A stretch of DNA of 64,000 bases from Roseococcus suduntuyensis. GTDB taxonomy: Bacteria; Pseudomonadota; Alphaproteobacteria; Acetobacterales; Acetobacteraceae. The DNA lies in NCBI RefSeq assembly GCF_014196305.1, contig NZ_JACIDJ010000011.1:1-64000 (forward strand), read 5' to 3'. The notes beneath the pieces were generated by a model, which saw only the letters and a program-made list of their open reading frames with translations, did not search any database and was not told the DNA's origin. Within the stretch, counting starts at the first letter, position 1; each line of letters opens with the position of its first letter. Both the position numbers and the translations under genes were made by a program. Below are positions 25,028 through 57,429 of this stretch, piece after piece.

Positions 25028-25911
25028 ACGTCACCCTCTCCGAAGTCTCCCCGCGCGACGGGCTGCAGCCCATCAAGGAATGGGTGCCGACCGAGACCAA
25101 GGTGGCGCTGGTGCGCGCCCTGCACGCGGCCGGCGTCACGCGGATGGAGGTGGGCAGCTTCGTCAGCCCCAAGGCCATCCCGCAGATGGCCGACACGAAT
25201 GAGGTGCTGAAGGCGGCGAAGCAGCTCGATGGCTTGGAATGCACCGTGCTGGTGCCCAACCGGCGCGGCTTCGACACGGCCATCCAGGCGGGCGCGGATC
25301 GCTTAGGCTTCTTCATGTCGGTGACGGAGAGCCACAACAAGGCGAACCTCAACCGCACGCGCATGGAGAGCTTCGCGGAACTGGCCAAGCTGGTGCAGGA
25401 GACGCCGAAGGGCACGAAGATCCGCTTCAACCTCTCCTGCGCCTTCCACTGCCCCTTCGAGGGCGTGGTGCCGGAGGCCGAGGCGCTGGACTGGATCGAG
25501 CGTGCCCAGGCGCTGGACGCCGACATGGAGGTGGCCATCGCCGACACCACCGGCAATGCGGCGCCCGACCAGGTGCGCCGCGTCTTCACCCACGCGATCG
25601 AGAGCTGGGGCAACCGCTTCGCCTTCCACGGGCATGACACCTATGGGCTGGGGCTGGCCAACATGCTGGCCGCCTGGGAGGCGGGGTGCCGCGTGTTCGA
25701 CGCGGGCTCGGGCGGGATCGGCGGCTGCCCCTATGCGCCGGGGGCCACGGGCAACACTGCCATGGAAGATGCCGCCTGGATGTTCGAGCGGATGGGTGTC
25801 TCCACCGGGCTGAACTGGCCCAGGCTGCTGGAAGCGGCGGACATGGCCGCCGCCATCCCGGGCGCCATGCCAGGCGGGCGGGTGCGCGGCGTGCCGGGGG
25901 CGCGCGGGTGA
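25024..25911 (+). CDS. Hydroxymethylglutaryl-CoA lyase family protein
   Basis: This 295-residue HMGL/DRE-TIM metallolyase cleaves HMG-CoA, or a related 3-hydroxyacyl-CoA, to a ketone or keto acid and acetyl-CoA. Visible are SPRDGLQ with Arg11/Asp12, the metal-binding His202-x-His204 in FHGHDTYGLG, and GIGGCPYAPGATGN with the active-site Cys235. It is coupled to the CoA-transferase by ATGA. The last codons and the stop lie inside the first unit of a 25-bp tandem repeat, so the C-terminal tail (GVPGARG) is repeat-derived. Confidence 0.88.
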   Translation: MNVTLSEVSPRDGLQPIKEWVPTETKVALVRALHAAGVTRMEVGSFVSPKAIPQMADTNEVLKAAKQLDGLECTVLVPNRRGFDTAIQAGADRLGFFMSVTESHNKANLNRTRMESFAELAKLVQETPKGTKIRFNLSCAFHCPFEGVVPEAEALDWIERAQALDADMEVAIADTTGNAAPDQVRRVFTHAIESWGNRFAFHGHDTYGLGLANMLAAWEAGCRVFDAGSGGIGGCPYAPGATGNTAMEDAAWMFERMGVSTGLNWPRLLEAADMAAAIPGAMPGGRVRGVPGARG

Positions 25912-26015
25912 AGCCGTGCCTGGGGCGCGCGGGTAAAGTCGTGCCTAGGGCGCGCGGGTAAAGCCTTGCCGGGGGCACGCGGGTGAAGCCTTGCCTGGCG
26001 CGCGCGGCGTGACGA
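25891..26015. repeat. 25-bp tandem repeat, about 4.5 copies, spanning the HMG-CoA lyase stop
   Basis: Units start at 25891, 25916, 25941, 25966 and 25991 (the last degenerate). Their shared core is a GTGCC or TTGCC start, a G-rich run, CGCGCGGGT, then GAAGCC or AAAGTC. The first unit supplies the last codons and the TGA of the lyase gene. Later units lie in the 3' untranslated part. No unit is palindromic. Confidence 0.85.
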
Positions 26016-43263: not shown

Positions 43264-45000
43264 CTACCCCTTTGCCGCCAGATGCGCCCGCCACCCGCCC
43301 AGCGCGGTGATGTCGGGCGCGCTGGCCACGCCTTCGGCCTCGGCCAGGAAGCCCAGGATGCGGCTGCCGTCCTCCAGCGCCACCTGGCCGAAGCCCAGCG
43401 GCGGCGGGATTTCGGCGAGGAATGGCCCGATGCTGGCAGCAGGCACGGCCCAGGCCTCGCCCGCGATCATGCCGCCGCCGGTCGCCACATGCAGCATTCC
43501 CGGCCGGTTGCCGAGGTCATACAGCCGGTAGGCCGGCGCGGTGCGGGCCGCGCGCAGGAAGCGCCCACCATGGCCCAGCATCTGCCGGTTCAGCGGCAGC
43601 CCGGCCATGTGCGCGCCGATGGCGAAGAGCGCGATTTCATGCGGCGCCAGCGGCGCGGGCACGGGGGGCAGGGGCCCGATGCCCGCCGCGTGATGGATGG
43701 CGGCCCCCAGGCCGCACAGCCGCCCCTCGCTGTGCGCCGGCCCGACCAGGGTGACGCCCGCCGGCGCCCCATCGGCCCGGAAGCCTGCCGGCACCGCGAG
43801 TGCCGCCAAGTCGCACAGGTTCACGAAATTCGTATAGGTGCCCAGCCGCGAATTGGCCGCGATGGGCGCCGCCTCCATGGCCGCCAGGGTCGGGATGCCG
43901 GGGCAGGTCGGCAGCAGCAGCGCGTCCACCTCGGCGAAGAGGCGCCGCGCCAGCAGCCGCGCGCCGGCCGCCGCGTGGAAGTCGTCGAAGGCGTCCATGG
44001 TGCGGCGCTCCAGCCCGCCTTCCAGGATGGCGCGCGTGACCGGGTGCAGGGCGTCCGGCCGCCGCACCACCCATTCCCGCAGCGCCGCCGTGCGCTCGGC
44101 CACCCAGGCCCCGTCATAGAGGCGGCGTGCCACCTCCAGCAGGGGGGCGATGTCCACGCGGCGGATGGTGGCGCCCATGGCCTCGGCGCGGGCCAGCGTG
44201 GCGTGGAACACCGCGGCATCGCCCGGCGTGTCGAAGACGAGCTGTTCCTCCAGCGGCGCGGCCAGGCTGGGGGCCGCGGGCGGCGCGTCCAGCGCGCGCC
44301 AGGTGGCGGGGGCGGGGCGGCTGTAGGGGTCCTCGGCATCGGGCCCGGCGGCGATGGCCAGCACGGCCGCCGCATCGGCCACCGAATGGGCGAAGATGGA
44401 CACCACGTCGAGCGATCGGCAGGCCGGCACCACGCCCCGCGTCGGGATCAGCCCCAGGCTCGGCTTCAGGCCCACCAGGTTCTGCGCGGCGGCAGGCACC
44501 CGGCCCGAGCCCGCCGTGTCCGTCCCCAGGCTGAAGGCCGCGATGCCGGCCGCGACCGCCGTGGCGGAGCCGGAGGAGGAGCCCCCCGGGATCAGCTCCG
44601 CGCGGATGGCGTTGCGCGGGGTGCCGTAGGGGCTGCGCGTGCCGTTCAGGCCGGTGGCGAACTGGTCCAGGTTCACCTTGCCCAGCAGCAGCGCGCCGGC
44701 CGCGCGCAGCCGCGCCACGGCCGGCGCATCGGCCTCCGGCACATGGGCGAAGTCCGGGCAGGCGGCGGTGGTGGGCATGCCGCCCACGTCGATATTGTCC
44801 TTCACCACGAAGGGGATGCCGTGCAGCTTGCCCTGCGGCAGGCGTGCCGCCTCGGCCATGATCTCGGCCTCGGGGCGCAGGTGCAGGAACAGCGCGGGGT
44901 CGTTGAATGCCGCGATGCGGGCCAGCGCCTCGGCCGCGATGGTGGTGGCGGGCGTGCCGGCGGCGAGGCGGGCGCGCAGCCCCTCCAGGGTGACGATCAT
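43264..45000 (-). CDS. atzF: Allophanate hydrolase
   Basis: This 578-residue enzyme hydrolyses allophanate to ammonia and CO2. The N-terminal amidase domain has Lys68 (FVVKDNIDV), Ser141 (GGSSSGSA) and Ser165 (GTDTAGSGRVPA). The C-terminal 120 or so residues form the extra AtzF/DUR1 domain, with the typical ALEDGSRILGFLAEAEG. No urea carboxylase is adjacent, so the allophanate source (urea carboxylation, biuret or cyanurate pathways) is open. The ATG at 45000 overlaps the upstream alpha/beta hydrolase stop. Confidence 0.9.
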   Translation of the reverse strand: MIVTLEGLRARLAAGTPATTIAAEALARIAAFNDPALFLHLRPEAEIMAEAARLPQGKLHGIPFVVKDNIDVGGMPTTAACPDFAHVPEADAPAVARLRAAGALLLGKVNLDQFATGLNGTRSPYGTPRNAIRAELIPGGSSSGSATAVAAGIAAFSLGTDTAGSGRVPAAAQNLVGLKPSLGLIPTRGVVPACRSLDVVSIFAHSVADAAAVLAIAAGPDAEDPYSRPAPATWRALDAPPAAPSLAAPLEEQLVFDTPGDAAVFHATLARAEAMGATIRRVDIAPLLEVARRLYDGAWVAERTAALREWVVRRPDALHPVTRAILEGGLERRTMDAFDDFHAAAGARLLARRLFAEVDALLLPTCPGIPTLAAMEAAPIAANSRLGTYTNFVNLCDLAALAVPAGFRADGAPAGVTLVGPAHSEGRLCGLGAAIHHAAGIGPLPPVPAPLAPHEIALFAIGAHMAGLPLNRQMLGHGGRFLRAARTAPAYRLYDLGNRPGMLHVATGGGMIAGEAWAVPAASIGPFLAEIPPPLGFGQVALEDGSRILGFLAEAEGVASAPDITALGGWRAHLAAKG

Positions 45001-45830
45001 CGCAGCATCTCCGCCGCCACGCGCAGCAACAGGCCATCGGGCCGGCGCAGCGCCTCCAGCACGCGGAAATGATCGGCCCCCGGCACGGGCCAGAGCGGCC
45101 CCGGTGCCTGGGCCGCCGCGCGCCGCGCATGGAAGTCGCGCGACTGTCGGCACAGCTCGGGCAGTTCCGCGGCGCCATGGACGATGGCCATGGGCTTCAT
45201 CACCACCGGCCGCCGCATCGGCGAGAGGTTGATGATCTCGTCATCGGTCAGCTTCAGCGCCGCGTTCAGGTAGGTGTCGCGGATCGGCCCCAGCTCGAAG
45301 ATGCCGGAGATGGCGACGGCCGCACTCACCGACGGGTGTTCGGCTCCCAGCGCCGTCAAATGCCCGCCCGCGCTCCAGCCGGACAGCACCAGCGGCCCGC
45401 CCATGCCGTGCTCGGCGCCATGGACGGAAAGCCAGTCCAGCGCCGTGTTCAACTGCCAGACGATGCGCGTCAGCGTGGCGTCGGGCGCCAGGCTGTAGCC
45501 GCAGAGGGCCACGCCCCAGCCCATGGCGAGCGCGCCTTCGGCCATGCAGGCGAAATCCTGCCGGCGGTTCCATTGCCAGTAGCCGCCATGGACGAAGACG
45601 AGCACGGGGGCCGAGGGGTCGCGGCCCGGGAACAGGTCCCAGGCTTCGCGGTCGCTGGGGCCGTAGGCGAGGTTCAGGTGGCCGGGATGGGCGGCGCGGA
45701 AGGCTTCGGAGGCCTGGTTGCGTTCCTCGGTCAGCGCGGGGCTGTCGGCCACGGCCTTGCGGTTGTCATAGGCGTCGTCGCGTTCGCGCTGCGTGAGGCT
45801 TGCCCAATCCAGACCATTCGCCAGCTTCAT
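44997..45830 (-). CDS. Alpha/beta hydrolase, carboxylesterase/formamidase-like
   Basis: This 277-residue alpha/beta hydrolase has the oxyanion motif HGGYW (81-85), the nucleophile elbow GWSAGG with Ser153, and a C-terminal GADHF with the probable catalytic His. It resembles kynurenine-formamidase/esterase-like proteins. Its coupling to allophanate hydrolase (ATGA) suggests it cleaves an amide or ester upstream of that step. The ATG at 45830 has a GAGGTGG site about six bases before it and is preferred over starts inside the neighbouring gap. Confidence 0.82.
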   Translation of the reverse strand: MKLANGLDWASLTQRERDDAYDNRKAVADSPALTEERNQASEAFRAAHPGHLNLAYGPSDREAWDLFPGRDPSAPVLVFVHGGYWQWNRRQDFACMAEGALAMGWGVALCGYSLAPDATLTRIVWQLNTALDWLSVHGAEHGMGGPLVLSGWSAGGHLTALGAEHPSVSAAVAISGIFELGPIRDTYLNAALKLTDDEIINLSPMRRPVVMKPMAIVHGAAELPELCRQSRDFHARRAAAQAPGPLWPVPGADHFRVLEALRRPDGLLLRVAAEMLR

Positions 45831-45900
45831 CCGTGCCACCTCAGGGTTTTGCGGCGCAGCACACACCGCCGCGCCGCGCCTGTCCACCGTTTCGGCCGCC

Positions 45901-46860
45901 TCAGCCCGTGATGACGCGGATGGGGCTGCCCGCCTCATAGGCCTGGATGGCCTCGACCGCGCCGGCGAAATAGCTGCGGTAGTTCTCCTGCGTGACGTAG
46001 CCGAGATGCGGCGTCAGCACCGTGTTGGGCGCCGACAGCAGCGGGTGGTCCATGGGCAGCGGCTCGATGTCATAGACATCAATGCCGGCACCGGCGATGC
46101 GCTCTTCGCGCAGGGCCGCGATCAGCGCCGCCTGGTCGATGATGGGCCCGCGCGAGGTGTTCACCACGAAGGCATCGGGCTTCATCAGCGCGAGTTCCGC
46201 CGCACCCACCAGCCCGCGCGACCGCTCGGACAGGATGAGGTGGATGGAGAGCACATCGGCGCCCGCGAACAGCTCGGCCTTGTCCACCCGCGTCACGCCA
46301 TGGGCCTCGGCGGCGGCGGCGGTCAGGTTCTGGCTCCAGGCGATGGTCTTCATGCCGAAGGCCTGGCCCACCTTCGCCACCTTCTGGCCGAGCTTGCCCA
46401 AACCGAGCAGCCCCAGCGTGCGCCCCTGCAACCCGACGCCCACCGCCGTCTGCCAGCGGCCCGCGCGCAGCGCGTCCTGCTGCGCCGGGATGCCGCGGGC
46501 GAGTGCGAGGATCAGCCCCCAGGTCAGGTCCACCGTGGGCGCGCCGAAGCTGGGCGTGCCGCTGAAGGTGATGCCGCGCGCGGCGCAGGCGGCGGCGTCG
46601 ATGCCGCGGTTGCGCTCGCCCGTGGTGATCAGCAGCTTCAGGTTCGGCAGCCGCTCCAGCAGGGCGGCGGGGAAGGGCGTGCGCTCGCGCATGGCGAGGA
46701 TGGCGTCGAAGGGCGCGAGGCGCGCCACCAGCGCGTCCTGGTCGTGCAGCGTGTCCTGGAAGACGGTGGCCTCGATGTGGGGCAGCTTCTCCCAGGGGCC
46801 CATGGCGAGGGTGACGCCCTGGTAGTCGTCCAGGATGGCGAGGCGCATAAGCTTTGGCAT
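45901..46860 (-). CDS. D-2-hydroxyacid dehydrogenase family protein
   Basis: This 319-residue NAD-dependent dehydrogenase has LGLLGLGKLGQKVAKVG as nucleotide-binding loop. The catalytic trio is visible as Arg in NTSRGPIIDQ, Glu in DVYDIEPLP and His in LTPHLGY. It reduces a 2-keto acid to a D-2-hydroxy acid or the reverse; the substrate is unknown (phosphoglycerate-, glyoxylate- and hydroxypyruvate-type enzymes share this pattern). It sits 70 bp upstream of the alpha/beta hydrolase gene on the same strand. Confidence 0.88.
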   Translation of the reverse strand: MPKLMRLAILDDYQGVTLAMGPWEKLPHIEATVFQDTLHDQDALVARLAPFDAILAMRERTPFPAALLERLPNLKLLITTGERNRGIDAAACAARGITFSGTPSFGAPTVDLTWGLILALARGIPAQQDALRAGRWQTAVGVGLQGRTLGLLGLGKLGQKVAKVGQAFGMKTIAWSQNLTAAAAEAHGVTRVDKAELFAGADVLSIHLILSERSRGLVGAAELALMKPDAFVVNTSRGPIIDQAALIAALREERIAGAGIDVYDIEPLPMDHPLLSAPNTVLTPHLGYVTQENYRSYFAGAVEAIQAYEAGSPIRVITG

Positions 46861-46878
46861 GGAATTTCCCCTTGGTGG

Positions 46879-48681
46879 TCAGGCTCTCAGCGCGCGTAGG
46901 GCATTGAGAATCACCGCCACGTCAATCGCCTCCTGCAACAAGGCGCCCTGCACGGGTGTGAGATAGCCCGCCGCCGCCGCGACCATGCCGAGGGTGGAAA
47001 GGCCGATGCCCGCCACCACGCTCTGCCGCGCGATGGCACGGGCGCGGGTGGCGGCGGCCAGCACCTCCGCGAGACGGCCGAGGCCCTCGCCCAGCAGCAC
47101 CGCATCGGCGGCCTGGGCGGCGGCGGCCCCGCGCACGCCGACGGCCACGCCCACATCGGCGGCCGCCAGGGCGGGCGCGTCGTTCAGCCCATCGCCCAGC
47201 ATCATCACGGGGCCATGGGCGCGGGTGGCGTGCAGCAGCGCGACCTTGCCGGAAGGGTCGAGCCGCGCATGGGCCGCATCGGCGCCCACGGCGCGGCCGA
47301 TGGCGGCGACCCGCGCCTCGGTGTCGCCCGAGGCCAGTTCCACCCGCGCCACCCCCTGGCGGCGCAGCGCGGCAATGAGGGCGGGCGCTTCGGGCCGCAG
47401 CCGGTCGGCGAAGAGCAGCACGCCCGCCACGCGCCCCTCCACGGCAACGAGGGAGCGGGTGGCGCCTTCCAGCCCTTCCTCGGCCGTCAGCGGGGGCGGA
47501 TGGCCTGTCGCATGGGCCTGCACGAAGGCGGCCCCGCCCACCAGGACGCGCTGGCCTTCCACCACGCCCTCCAGCCCCTCGCCGGGGGTTTCGCGCACCG
47601 ATTCGGGCGTGGCCAGCGCAAGCCCGTGCGCCCGCGCCGCCGCCACCAGCGCATGGGCGATGGGGTGGGTGGAGGCCTGGTCCAGGCTGGCCGCCAGCCG
47701 CAGCGCCTCATCGCCGCCCGCATGGGCCACAAGTTCCGCCTGGCCGTGCGTCAGGGTGCCGGTCTTGTCCATGATGACGACGCGGATGCGCGACATGGCC
47801 TCCAGCGCCGCCGCCGATTTCACCAGCACGCCGAGCTTCGCCGCGCGCGAAAGCCCTGCCATCAGCGCCACCGGCACGGCCAGGATCAGCGGGCAGGGGG
47901 TGGCGACCACCAGCACGGCCAATGCCCGCGTGGCCTCGCCGGTCGCGGCCCAGGCGCCGCCGGCCAGGGTCAGGGTCAGCGCCAGGAAGCTCAGCGCCCA
48001 GCGGTCCGCCAGCCGCGCCATGGGCGCGCGGCTTTCCTGCGCGGCGCGCACCAGGCGCAATATGCCGCCATAGGTGCTGGCCTCCGCATCGGTGGTGGCC
48101 AGCAGGTCGAAGGCCTCGCCGGCATTGCCGCAGCCCGAGAGCAGCGCTTCGCCGCGCGCGGCGCGCATCGGCATGGGCTCGCCCGTCACGGCGGCGGTGT
48201 CGAGCAGGGCGGAATCACCCTCCAGCACGCCATCCACCGGCAGCACGGCCCCGCGCGGGATCAGCAGCCGGTCGCCGGGGCCGAGGGCCGCGATGGGCAC
48301 CTCCTCCAGGCCCTGGGAGCCGTGGCGCAGCGCCGTGCGGGGCTGGCGGGCCAGCAGGGCCGTCATCTCGGCGCTGGCGCGGTGGCGGGCGTGGTCGTCG
48401 AGGAACTGCCCGCCGGCATACATCAGCGCCACCACATTGGCGGCGAGGTTCTCGTCCATCACCAGGGCGAAGCCGATGGCCAGGGCCGCGATGAGGTCCA
48501 GGCCGAACTCGCCCCCGCGCAGGCTGCGCGCCATCTCGGCCAGCAGGAGGGCCAGCACGGGCAGGGCGCCCATGGCGAAGGCGGCGCCCGGCACATGGCC
48601 CAACGCCCAGAGCACCCCGCCCGCCAGCAGGCCGAGCAGCGGTGGCGCCAGCAGCGCCCGCCGGTCGGCCAGGGGGGTCAT
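46879..48681 (-). CDS. P1B-type heavy-metal transporting ATPase
   Basis: This 600-residue metal pump has no N-terminal metal-binding domain. Visible are TGEP (about 166-169), the membrane motif TPCP (261-264) where CPC or SPC is usual, DKTGTLT with phosphorylated Asp305, and GDGLNDAPAL. The last helix reads QEAID. TPCP with QEXXD is the signature reported for P1B-5 pumps, linked to Ni/Fe export; the usual C-terminal hemerythrin domain is absent. The start lies in a 14-bp tandem repeat and is reached from the thioesterase gene by a chain of ATGA overlaps. Confidence 0.88.
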   Translation of the reverse strand: MTPLADRRALLAPPLLGLLAGGVLWALGHVPGAAFAMGALPVLALLLAEMARSLRGGEFGLDLIAALAIGFALVMDENLAANVVALMYAGGQFLDDHARHRASAEMTALLARQPRTALRHGSQGLEEVPIAALGPGDRLLIPRGAVLPVDGVLEGDSALLDTAAVTGEPMPMRAARGEALLSGCGNAGEAFDLLATTDAEASTYGGILRLVRAAQESRAPMARLADRWALSFLALTLTLAGGAWAATGEATRALAVLVVATPCPLILAVPVALMAGLSRAAKLGVLVKSAAALEAMSRIRVVIMDKTGTLTHGQAELVAHAGGDEALRLAASLDQASTHPIAHALVAAARAHGLALATPESVRETPGEGLEGVVEGQRVLVGGAAFVQAHATGHPPPLTAEEGLEGATRSLVAVEGRVAGVLLFADRLRPEAPALIAALRRQGVARVELASGDTEARVAAIGRAVGADAAHARLDPSGKVALLHATRAHGPVMMLGDGLNDAPALAAADVGVAVGVRGAAAAQAADAVLLGEGLGRLAEVLAAATRARAIARQSVVAGIGLSTLGMVAAAAGYLTPVQGALLQEAIDVAVILNALRALRA

Positions 48682-48727
48682 GGTTGGGGGGTCATGGTTG
48701 GGGGGTCATGGTTGGGATGTCATGTCA
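48672..48727 (-). repeat. 14-bp tandem repeat forming three minicistrons before the P1B ATPase start
   Basis: GGGGGGTCATGGTT occurs at 48672-48685, 48686-48699 and 48700-48713, with a diverged copy to 48727. On the minus strand each unit provides an ATG. The ATGs at 48723, 48709 and 48695 each open a five-codon frame (MTSQP, MTPQP, MTPQP) whose TGA overlaps the next ATG as ATGA. The first ATG overlaps the thioesterase stop and the last TGA overlaps the ATPase start at 48681. Confidence 0.9.
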
Positions 48728-49154
48728 GCAGGGCCTCGGCGGCGCGGCGCAGCGCCTCGGGCAGCGGCACGGTGCGGGATTGTTGGGCGCGGTCCACATA
48801 GACATGGGTGAAATGGCCCTCGGCCGCGGCCTGGTCCTCGTCATTGCGGAACAGCGCGAGTTCGTAGGTGATGGAGGAACCTCCCAGGCGCCGCGGCCGC
48901 AGCCCGCCCGTCACCTCGTCGGGGAAGGCCATGGGGGCATGATAGCGGCAACCCGTCTCGACCACGAGGCCCACATACGGGCTGCGCGCCAGGTCCAGCA
49001 CGCCATGGTCCAGCAGGAAGCGCGCCACGAGCGTGTCGAACAGGCTGTAGTGCTGCACGTTGTTCATGTGCCCGTAGATATCATTGTCCATCCAGCGGGT
49101 GGCCATGGTGCGGAACCATCTGTAGTCGGCGCGGCGGCCAGGGGGTGCTCTCAC
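48720..49154 (-). CDS. Acyl-CoA thioesterase, 4HBT/YbgC type
   Basis: This 144-residue hot-dog-fold thioesterase has the characteristic RWMDNDIYGHMNNVQHYSLFDT with catalytic Asp near residue 21. It ends in ALRRAAEALLT. It hydrolyses an acyl-CoA in the cytoplasm; chain preference is unknown. The likely start is GTG 49154, seven bases after AAAGGAA; further upstream starts would run into the divergent minC region. Its stop begins the minicistron chain that leads to the P1B ATPase. Confidence 0.83.
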   Translation of the reverse strand: MRAPPGRRADYRWFRTMATRWMDNDIYGHMNNVQHYSLFDTLVARFLLDHGVLDLARSPYVGLVVETGCRYHAPMAFPDEVTGGLRPRRLGGSSITYELALFRNDEDQAAAEGHFTHVYVDRAQQSRTVPLPEALRRAAEALLT

Positions 49155-49296
49155 GCGGGGGTTCCTTTCGGGACGCTGGGGTGGAGGATGTCCCGGTTCA
49201 TCCCCGGTTTCCACTGGGGGAATGGCGGGAAGGGCTTCGCTCCGGCGCGCGGGGCGGCTATGCAGGCGCGTTGCAGCCTGGATGACACAAAGCCCC

Positions 49297-50061
49297 ATGT
49301 CCGTCGCCGCGAGGCCCTCCCCCATGCCGGAAAGCTTCCGCCTGCGCGCGAGCAATTACAGCCTGCTGACCCTGCGCCTGCTGACGGGCCGCATCGAGGA
49401 GGTGCTGCCCGCGCTGGGCGACCAGTTCCAGAAGGCGCCCGGCTTCCTGCGCTTCGCGCCCATCGCCATCGGCCTCGACGATCTGGGCGATGACCGGGTG
49501 GACTTCCCGGCGCTGATCCAGGGGCTGCGCGCGCTGGAAATCCTGCCCATCGGCGTCACGGGCGGCACGCAGATGCAGCGCGCGGCGGCCGCCGGCGCGG
49601 GCCTGCCCACGCTGCGCCCCACCGGCCAGAAGGAGACGGAGGTGCAGGCCCCCGCACCCGTGGCGGCACCCCCGGTGGCCATGAATCCGCCGCCCGCCGC
49701 CGCCGCCACGCCGCCGCCCATGGCCGCCGCCGCGCGCACCCTGGTCGTGGAGCAGAACATCCGCGCCGGCCAGCGCGTCCATGCCCAGGGTGCCGACCTC
49801 GTCGTCATCGGCACCGTCAATGCCGGGGCCGAGGTCATCGCGGACGGCAACGTGCACATCTACGGCGCGCTGCGCGGCCGGGCCGTCGCCGGTGCCGGCG
49901 ATGACGGCGAGGCGCGCATCTTCGCGCAGATCTTCGACCCGGAACTCGTCGCCATCGCGGGCTTCTATGCCGTGCGCGACGGGCTTTCGGGCACACCCAT
50001 CGGCCGCGGCGCGATCGTCCGGCTGGAGGGCGAACAGCTTCGGTTCAGCCCGATCGGCTGA
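49297..50061 (+). CDS. minC: Septum site-determining protein MinC
   Basis: MinC inhibits FtsZ polymerisation away from mid-cell. This 254-residue form has the N-terminal FtsZ-interacting domain (FRLRASNYSLLTLRL to about residue 95), a long Pro/Ala linker (about 108-140), and the C-terminal beta-helix that binds MinD (IRAGQRVHAQGADLVVIGTVNAGAEVIADGNVHIYGALRGRA). ATG codons at 49282, 49297 and 49324 are all possible; 49297 is a compromise, as none has a strong ribosome binding site. It heads minCDE. Confidence 0.92.
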   Translation: MSVAARPSPMPESFRLRASNYSLLTLRLLTGRIEEVLPALGDQFQKAPGFLRFAPIAIGLDDLGDDRVDFPALIQGLRALEILPIGVTGGTQMQRAAAAGAGLPTLRPTGQKETEVQAPAPVAAPPVAMNPPPAAAATPPPMAAAARTLVVEQNIRAGQRVHAQGADLVVIGTVNAGAEVIADGNVHIYGALRGRAVAGAGDDGEARIFAQIFDPELVAIAGFYAVRDGLSGTPIGRGAIVRLEGEQLRFSPIG

Positions 50062-50088
50062 GCCGACCCAACCGGGAGGGATTTCTTC

Positions 50089-50906
<818 letters not shown>

Positions 50907-50910
<4 letters not shown>

Positions 50911-51188
50911 GCTGGCTGAACTTCTTCCGCACCCGCCGCGACGAGGCGGCCGCCGGGAGCAACGCGAACCTGGCCAAGGACCGGCTGCAGGTCATCATCA
51001 GCCATGAGCGCGTCTCCCGCACGCGGGAGGATTTTCTGCCGAAGATGCAGCAGGAACTCGTCGCCGTGGTCACGCGCTATGTGGCGGTGGACCCCGACAA
51101 GGTGCAGGTGAACCTGGAGCGTGGCGCGGACCTTTCCACGCTGGCCATCGAGATCGAGCTGCCGGGCCCGAAGGGCAAGCTGACGTGA
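50907..51188 (+). CDS. minE: Cell division topological specificity factor MinE
   Basis: This 93-residue MinE has an N-terminal membrane/MinD-contact segment (MSWLNFFRTRR), the helix or strand region AKDRLQVIISHERVSR, and a C-terminal topological-specificity domain. It stimulates MinD ATPase activity. Its stop overlaps the GTG of the next gene (GTGA), so the min operon continues into unrelated genes. Confidence 0.95.
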
Positions 51189-52213
51189 GCTTCGAGCAAG
51201 CGGCGGCGCACGCCCAGGCGCACGAAACCCCCTGGCCGCGCGACATCCTGGCGCATCTGGAAAGCGGCTTCTTCGAACCCGCGCCGGACAACGAGGTGCT
51301 GGGCCCGACGGCCCCGCGCGGCGGCCCGGCCGGCATCATCTTCCAGCGCGGGCAGCGCGTGGCCGAATGGGGCGACACGCAGCGCGCGGACATGACCTTC
51401 AGCGTGGCCAAGTCCTACCTCGCCATGCTGGCGGGGCTGGCCGTGCAGGATGGCCTGCTGCCCGACCTGGACGAGGAGGTGCGCCGCCGCGCCGCGCACC
51501 CGGCCTTCGAAGGCGCGCAGAACGGCCGGATCACCTGGCGGCATCTGCTGACCAACACCTCGGAGTGGGAAGGCAGCCTCTTCGGCAAGAGCGACCTGAT
51601 CGACCGCGGTCGGAATTTGGGCGTGGAAGGGCAGGGGAAGAAGCGCAGCACGCGGCCCTTGCAGGCGCCGGGCGCCTATTGGGAATACAATGACGTGCGC
51701 GTGAACGCGCTGTCTTTGGGCCTGCTGCTGTTGTTCCGGCGCAGCCTTCCCGATGTGTGGCGCGAGCGCATCATGGGCCCCATCGGCGCCAGCGCGGATT
51801 GGCATTGGCATGGCTATTCGACCTCAGGCGTCGAGATCGGCGGGCAGGTCATCGAGAGCGTCTCGGGCGGCGGCCATTGGGGCGGGGGCATCTTCATCTC
51901 CGCCGAGGACCAGGCGCGCGTGGGCCTGCTGGTGGCGGCGGATGGCGAGTGGCAGGGCCGGCGCCTCATCGCGAAGGAGTGGCTCGACCTCTGCCGCGCC
52001 CCCTGCGCGCTGAACCCGCATTACGGCTTCCTGTTCTGGCTCAACACCGGCCGTACCAAGTGGCCGAGCGCCAGCGAGGGCGCGGTGTGCTTCTCCGGCG
52101 CCGGCGGCAACACGACCTGGATGGAGCCGGAAGGCGGCATCATGAGCGTGACGCGCTGGCTCGATCCCGCGCAGTTGGATGGCTACATGGCGAGGGTGCG
52201 CGCCGCCGCATGA
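51185..52213 (+). CDS. Beta-lactamase-fold serine hydrolase
   Basis: This 342-residue class C beta-lactamase-like hydrolase has the SxxK nucleophile motif SVAKS (Ser73, Lys76) and the Tyr motif YND (Tyr168-Asp170). No signal peptide is seen, so it is probably cytoplasmic and an esterase or amidase rather than a true beta-lactamase or DD-peptidase. It starts with GTG 51185, coupled to minE, and overlaps the YifB gene by ATGA. Confidence 0.82.
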   Translation: MSFEQAAAHAQAHETPWPRDILAHLESGFFEPAPDNEVLGPTAPRGGPAGIIFQRGQRVAEWGDTQRADMTFSVAKSYLAMLAGLAVQDGLLPDLDEEVRRRAAHPAFEGAQNGRITWRHLLTNTSEWEGSLFGKSDLIDRGRNLGVEGQGKKRSTRPLQAPGAYWEYNDVRVNALSLGLLLLFRRSLPDVWRERIMGPIGASADWHWHGYSTSGVEIGGQVIESVSGGGHWGGGIFISAEDQARVGLLVAADGEWQGRRLIAKEWLDLCRAPCALNPHYGFLFWLNTGRTKWPSASEGAVCFSGAGGNTTWMEPEGGIMSVTRWLDPAQLDGYMARVRAAA

Positions 52214-57323: not shown

Positions 57324-57429
57324 GGCTGATCCACGCCTTCGGAAAATACCGAAGGCGATCAGCGCTATACGCCCGGCGGCTGATCCACGCCTTCGGAAAA
57401 TACCGAAGGCGACCAGACGCTACACGCCC
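57324..57429. repeat. Duplicated stop-plus-hairpin unit, two copies of about 52 bp
   Basis: Copies at 57324-57374 and 57378-57429 are nearly identical. Each holds a 9-bp stem CGCCTTCGG/CCGAAGGCG with a 6-nt loop (stems at 57334-57357 and 57388-57411). The second copy includes the TAG stop of the minus-strand metallophosphoesterase; the first carries a duplicate of its final GTA-TAG. They serve as tandem terminators between convergent genes. Confidence 0.85.

Follow-up and report, generated by a model that had tools for sequence, protein, structure and literature searches.

The window analysed here is a stretch of 64,000 nucleotides from Roseococcus suduntuyensis. On its minus strand, an acyl-CoA thioesterase-like ORF (4HBT_2; 48720..49355) precedes the gene for a P1B heavy-metal ATPase (46879..48681), and the 38 nt from the stop of the former to the start of the latter (48719-48682) are filled by three frames of five codons (MTSQP, MTPQP and MTPQP), each closed by its own stop. 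The thioesterase TGA (48722-48720) overlaps an ATG at 48723 that opens minicistron 1 (48706..48723); minicistrons 2 (48692..48709) and 3 (48678..48695) follow, and the TGA of the last overlaps the final ATG of the series, at 48681, which opens the ATPase. The ATGA overlaps are located at 48723-48720, 48709-48706, 48695-48692 and 48681-48678. Read along the minus strand, the order is GCCGAGGCCCTGCTGAC, then ATGACATCCCAACC, ATGACCCCCCAACC and ATGACCCCCCAACC, then ATGACCCCCCTGGCC, with two bases differing between unit 1 (ATGACATCCCAACC) and the identical units 2 and 3. Tandem Repeats Finder (TRF) delimits the array at 48672-48724 (period 14, 3.8 copies, 94% matches, score 92), and its exactly periodic core spans 45 nt (48716-48672), made up of three copies of CCAACCATGACCCC and a 3-nt remainder, with C-runs on the flanks. 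The earlier note on this DNA had described a 14-bp repeat that builds three five-codon minicistrons with an ATGA at every junction, and both the coordinates and TRF reproduce this description exactly. Such a periodic core between C-runs is what slippage would be expected to produce, presumably in a one-unit ancestor like that of a close relative (G003), the unit of which is homologous to minicistron 1 and matches it at 12 of 14 bases.

The triple-ATGA array is not a product of chance. ATGA triples repeated in tandem at a unit length of 8-26 bp occur twice in the window, both times in this array, versus none in 60 dinucleotide shuffles, and in the complete 4.1-Mb genome (the window's own, G000 in our genome set) the 14-bp pattern is confined to this single place, with two overlapping matches and none for the reversed control. 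The two top-scoring tandem repeats of the window lie elsewhere, at 57324-57429 (54 bp x 1.9, 94% matches) and at 25890-26012 (25 bp x 4.9, 85%).

The ATPase exceeds the cut-offs of both TIGR01525 and the cadmium subfamily TIGR01512, and its two best matches in the contig search are Roseococcus records with 78% and 70% identity. In both G003 and G004, and likewise in those outgroups that share the gene pair (G017 among them), the N-terminus (M/V)xPLADRR starts from the same ATG/GTG; judged by sequence, the assigned ATPase start is right. The start of the thioesterase is uncertain, because its ORF extends some 60 codons upstream of the in-frame match in G004. Both genes are under purifying selection, with a dN/dS of 0.17 for the ATPase (G000-G004) and of 0.14 (G000-G004) and 0.09 (G000-G003) for the last 150 codons of the thioesterase; hence, the ATPase is presumably still made. 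The downstream neighbours encode a 2-hydroxyacid dehydrogenase and an alpha/beta hydrolase.

A Shine-Dalgarno (SD)-like GAGG (48737-48734) in the thioesterase end, 10 nt ahead of the minicistron 1 ATG at 48723, forms an anti-SD duplex of -5.9 kcal/mol, and no SD precedes the ATGs at 48709, 48695 and 48681, the ATPase start, where the duplex is at +0.7 kcal/mol. The 53-nt array by itself folds at -1.8 kcal/mol and is thus nearly unstructured. The scan of 48600-49500 returned no terminator-like site and, for the sigma-70 type covered, no promoter, where only 0.1 would be expected by chance; Rfam gave no match in 45000-52000. The earlier note had named a promoter and ribosome binding site belonging to the ATPase as contrary evidence, and neither an SD at the ATG nor a sigma-70-like promoter in 48600-49500 was found, although the latter result is weak given the low chance expectation. 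A leader-peptide attenuator was rejected on the shallow fold of the array, the lack of terminator-like sites in 48600-49500 and the negative Rfam search, and a known RNA on the latter result in 45000-52000.

Unit number in related genomes

With one genome sampled per species, the ATPase is found at E<=1e-140 in 12 of 21 same-genus genomes, the window's own included. The closest of these genomes differ in the number of 14-bp units at the junction: in G004 (94% amino acid identity in the ATPase), which lacks units, the two genes overlap directly as ATGA, whereas G003 (92%) carries a single unit, ATGACACCCCACCC, and G000 three. With zero, one or three units, both reading frames are intact at the junction, and no frame-breaking unit occurs between thioesterase and ATPase in the relatives examined. 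The G003 ATPase itself carries a frame change near residue 345 (C56 ~113340-113374, L013), a sign that the gene is broken or else that the assembly is wrong there.

Farther out, seven genomes (G010, G018, G015, G014, G019, G005 and G009) join the same gene pair by a direct GTGA overlap without any unit, and so does G017, whose contig carries just the ATPase start, making eight outgroups, all of the same genus, with the plain overlap. G020 also shows GTGA and no unit, but its upstream gene differs, since its thioesterase match sits on another contig, and in G006 (ATPase 52%) the neighbourhood is different. The direct overlap in G004 and the eight outgroups points to a simple overlap as the likely ancestral state. 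Nonetheless, the branching of G000, G003 and G004 has a support of 51, so that loss of the unit in G004 is as possible as its gain in G000 and G003. The position of the GAGG follows the array: in G004 it precedes the ATPase ATG itself, whereas in G003, as in G000, it precedes the minicistron and not the ATPase, from which we conclude that array growth took the SD away from the ATPase.

These results agree with the expectation of the earlier note that relatives would show a 14-bp ladder always keeping ATGA, and with its view that copy number can change without breaking the relay; repeats of other unit lengths that break the overlap, which it had listed as adverse evidence, are absent from this junction in the relatives examined. 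Its reading of such a ladder as a sign of selection does not follow from this single locus, because a duplication carries the ATGA along and a third of all unit lengths preserve the frame, but gains support from the class-wide comparison presented below (for 14 bp, among the matches listed). As a whole, the earlier interpretation is thus partly supported. A slippage contingency locus was also considered and rejected, since both frames are kept at every copy number.

The 17-bp search revealed a second relay in G000 (C1:1094417-1094454), in which two 17-bp units ATGAACGCGCTGAAACC (MNALKP and a stop) lie ahead of a gene that we take, from the translations, to be folC, downstream of a presumed accD. 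Since the chain begins 10 nt past the accD stop, no overlap is involved in its first step. Among eight chosen same-genus genomes, the units again number zero in G004, one in G003 and two in G000, and the junction without units, in frame with folC, takes the form of a direct ATGA in G009 and G015, GTGA in G010, GTGATG in G018 and TGATG in G012. A third ladder involves a binding-protein-dependent permease pair with five units in G314 and two in G392, the proteins being 96% and 95% identical. More generally, a Pfam scan of ten chosen 14-bp junctions gave a match on both sides in nine, including CcmE-CcmF, nitrate reductase beta-delta (NarH-NarJ), two ABC-ATPase pairs, the permease pair, SdhE with a UvrB-interaction-domain protein, an APH-fold kinase with RNase H and a GDSL lipase with FIST. 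Unit sequences differ between most of the junctions of the class, so the arrays arose many times.

Two further observations concern the distribution and geometry of the arrays. Some genera have several 14-bp ATGA arrays each (G304 and G208 in g66; G314, G392 and G220 in g83), which gives the impression that relays or slippage are particularly frequent in them. In addition, 15-bp ATGA arrays with an in-frame TGA in each unit occur in G072 (C9:93131-93179), where the TGA directly abuts the next ATG (TGA-ATG), and in G200 (C10:136731-136764); they are possibly a second geometry of minicistron relay.

Unit length at gene starts in the Alphaproteobacteria

The 14-bp triple is present in 117 of the 385 genomes of the class, versus 39 of 385 for the reversed control, and in the same 275 genomes a match is found in 80 for 14 bp, 62 for 13 bp, 65 for 11 bp, 58 for 17 bp and 52 for 16 bp, but raw pattern counts are by themselves weak evidence. 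The analysis was thus based on arrays with units at least 70% alike, taken with up to 1.2 kb on either side, and on their position relative to genes. An array was placed at a gene start when a coding ORF began at its last ATG, and at a two-gene overlap when another ended at its first ATGA, the coding ORFs being called with a codon-position G+C filter or, where genome G+C was low, by length. A looser criterion (ORFs of at least 60 codons) took a spurious frame as accD, when the real stop lies 10 nt before the first ATG, and with the G+C filter in its place the 14-bp arrays scored as two-gene overlaps dropped from 26 to 16 of 57 among the matches listed. Arrays seen on both strands at one place count once; unit lengths that are multiples of three were left out, as was a variable-gap survey of 80 genomes, which had also picked up 15-bp in-frame coding repeats.

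For 14 bp, 138 of the 150 matches listed, out of 294, were used, with eight rows of G286 and four of G132 omitted as 7-bp-period registers, and three 7-bp-period loci (L224, L239 and L240) were excluded. We used 68 of 96 rows for 13 bp and 34 of 85 for 16 bp (row totals counted by eye); we passed over rows whose units did not resemble one another on inspection by eye, as well as rows from the second strand of palindromic arrays, and the 16-bp set also excludes the arrays with an 8-bp period in G306, G147 and G176. Every listed row was used for 11 bp (92 rows) and 17 bp (85 rows).

Among the matches listed, the frame-keeping 14-bp unit accounts for 57 arrays, 37 of them at a gene start and 16 at a two-gene overlap. 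The other frame-keeping lengths give 29 arrays (12 and 5) for 17 bp and 20 arrays (4 and 0) for 11 bp, versus 27 (4 and 1) and 19 (3 and 0) for the frame-breaking lengths of 13 and 16 bp, which together have 7 of 46 arrays at gene starts. With 14-bp arrays taken among the matches listed, with thresholds set during the analysis and with related genomes that are not independent, the pooled 14- and 17-bp arrays exceed those of 13 and 16 bp at p=2.8e-6 for gene starts and 5.3e-4 for two-gene overlaps. On the same terms, the 14-bp arrays do so at 3.4e-7 and 3.2e-4 (7.5e-7 and 6.3e-4 with the window left out), and all three frame-keeping lengths at 5.4e-5 and 0.0045; the corresponding values for 17 bp are 0.015 and 0.029. 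When each genome is counted once per length, 24 of 32 genomes for 14 bp (among the matches listed) compare with 7 of 36 for 13 and 16 bp (p=6.8e-6), and 8 of 20 for 17 bp with the same 7 of 36 (p=0.12), which is not significant alone. Within the same 275 genomes, the counts per genome are 12/18 for 14 bp (among the matches listed), 8/20 for 17 bp, 4/16 for 11 bp, 4/20 for 13 bp and 3/16 for 16 bp. The 11-bp units, frame-keeping too, show no enrichment at gene starts (4/20); four-codon frames may be too short, or the 7-base comparison may admit chance arrays.

A search of the phylum added seven further tandem-like 14-bp arrays, four of them at gene starts, two of these four with a two-gene overlap as well; one of the seven has a 7-bp period, three come from genomes already matched in the class 14-bp search (G063, G194 and G318) and the other four genomes are new. 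Outside the class, the triple-ATGA pattern often has a 7-bp period (7 = 1 mod 3) among the matches listed, as seen in G454, G480, G451, G559, G702, G581 and G577.

Repeated SD sequences were rejected as a general explanation for the arrays, for just 3 of 37 arrays of 14 bp (among the matches listed) and 2 of 12 of 17 bp at gene starts carry an SD-like word in their final unit; the other 34 and 10 contain none of five such words there. Because duplication cannot know the reading frame, we read the frame bias as selective retention, and this suggests that bacteria tolerate duplications at such gene starts mainly when the hand-over stays intact.

Probable origin of the array and proposed hand-over of ribosomes

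We consider it likely that the arrays stem from slippage duplications across a coupled stop and start, filtered for lengths of 2 mod 3, that keep serial termination and reinitiation going. A plain 4-nt stop/start overlap would become an array by tandem duplication, through replication slippage, of the segment spanning the junction. Whatever the unit length, neither protein is altered, since the first TGA still closes the upstream one and the last ATG still opens the downstream one, but the duplication would move the ATPase start off its SD-like GAGG and off the thioesterase stop, by 38 nt here. The accessible part of PMC10666635 reports for E. coli that coupling needs no more of the upstream gene than its final 15 nt, and that a gap of precisely this size cut reinitiation by 80-90% in two gene pairs and abolished it in a third. 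Without a relay, coupling across 38 nt should therefore fail; with it, every stop would sit on a start. A closed chain can arise solely with units of 2 mod 3, which for 14 bp means five sense codons and a stop per minicistron. Each minicistron then has its stop right on the following ATG, so that a single ribosome could pass along the chain by terminating and reinitiating four times in series. Duplications with units of this kind would be retained, and those with other lengths would tend toward loss. From the observed structure, ladder, SD position and class-wide frame bias, we infer that ribosomes travel the relay and that selection acts on the loss of coupling.

A rival reading, which takes up the idea of the earlier note that copy number might tune ATPase output, is that the relay is adjustable, each unit passing on only a fraction of the ribosomes, so that slippage would set ATPase output in steps for selection to use. 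Close species do differ in copy number at three junctions. The accessible part of PMC6728339 reports that, once the SD had been removed, reinitiation fell by 60-90% in three E. coli pairs and ceased in another, with no effect in bioBF, where there is no coupling; SD-less relay steps may thus be leaky or inefficient, a property on which a tuning role would depend. The copy numbers are, however, small and may drift, and we hold this reading to be possible but rather unlikely. A broader version would regard the relays as a recurrent element of the Alphaproteobacteria, in which 14- and 17-bp slippage, at a fixed factor per unit, provides a frame-safe and reversible dial of stoichiometry under selection, and this we regard as doubtful.

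The arrays might also be neutral clutter, with unused minicistrons, an ATPase ATG that starts by itself in an unstructured, C-rich stretch and duplications of any length tolerated. The weak fold of the array fits this account, as do the neutrality of junction-spanning duplications for both proteins and the 7 of 46 frame-breaking arrays that lie at gene starts. On the other hand, the ATPase start lacks an SD, and neutrality predicts none of the enrichment of 14-bp (among the matches listed) and 17-bp arrays at gene starts over frame-breaking lengths, which leaves this account unlikely. It is highly improbable that a post-termination 70S or 30S scans across the 38 nt with the minicistrons untranslated: 70S scanning has been reported in vitro (discussed in the accessible part of PMC12548453), but in vivo reinitiation is strongly distance-dependent according to that of PMC10666635, and scanning does not account for the class-wide frame bias (14 bp, among the matches listed). 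Least probable is an element acting at the DNA level, such as a repeated protein-binding site or an ATPase promoter, for although short direct repeats can be binding sites, copy number differs (0, 1 and 3) between close species, units at other junctions are unrelated in sequence, Rfam has no match in 45000-52000 and no sigma-70-like promoter is seen in 48600-49500, a weak point at 0.1 expected by chance.

Relation to known systems

If serial termination and reinitiation is indeed what the arrays maintain, they would point to a rule that decides whether a tandem duplication at an operon junction survives, warn gene finders of mis-called starts and supply a simple building block with which protein ratios could be set step by step. 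The natural series, with 0 to 5 or more units and with 14 and 17 versus 13 and 16 bp, bears on repeated SD-less termination and restart by one ribosome, and touches the dispute between strict overlap-dependent reinitiation and scanning.

One of the closest counterparts lies in coupled gene pairs that overlap at -4 (PMC6728339 and PMC10666635, in their accessible parts), which all four junctions of the chain resemble in being ATGA overlaps. The likely ancestral state of the junction, direct in G004 and eight outgroups, is one such overlap, but known pairs have a single junction, whereas here a tandem repeat strings together up to five tiny frames (L250). Synthetic bicistronic designs normally have one leader with its own SD. 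These designs and coupled uORFs resemble the arrays in bringing the ribosome to the gene proper by way of a short leader cistron (accessible parts of PMC12548453 and PMC10367133), but here the leaders form a repeated series, follow a real gene and have SD-less later starts. Slippage changes copy number in contingency loci too (accessible part of PMC3711429, and general knowledge), but these switch a gene by frameshift, whereas here neither protein is altered however many 14-bp units are present. No description of tandem minicistron chains with 14- or 17-bp units was found in the open-access literature, as judged from titles and abstract openings, and the accessible parts of PMC3711429 and PMC5972666 do not describe such chains.

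A chain of tiny frames could, from its sequence, hand over ribosomes between genes, and the mycobacterial interspersed repetitive units (MIRUs) are the other close counterpart among known systems. These repeats are tens of bp in length. Within them, a small ORF couples to the next gene at -4 (Supply et al. 1997, via the accessible part of PMC12548453), and as a result of this coupling their insertion has, in the same source, little effect on the following gene. The end of a small ORF overlaps the following gene by -4 here too. MIRUs are, however, much longer, sequence-related, dispersed and apparently mobile, whereas the 14- and 17-bp units are unrelated between junctions and locally derived, and dispersed related copies of the MIRU type are absent: the 14-bp ATGA triple occurs once in G000, and the accD-folC unit differs from it in both sequence and length. 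The relay arrays thus share the logic of MIRUs, but are not a dispersed, sequence-related repeat.
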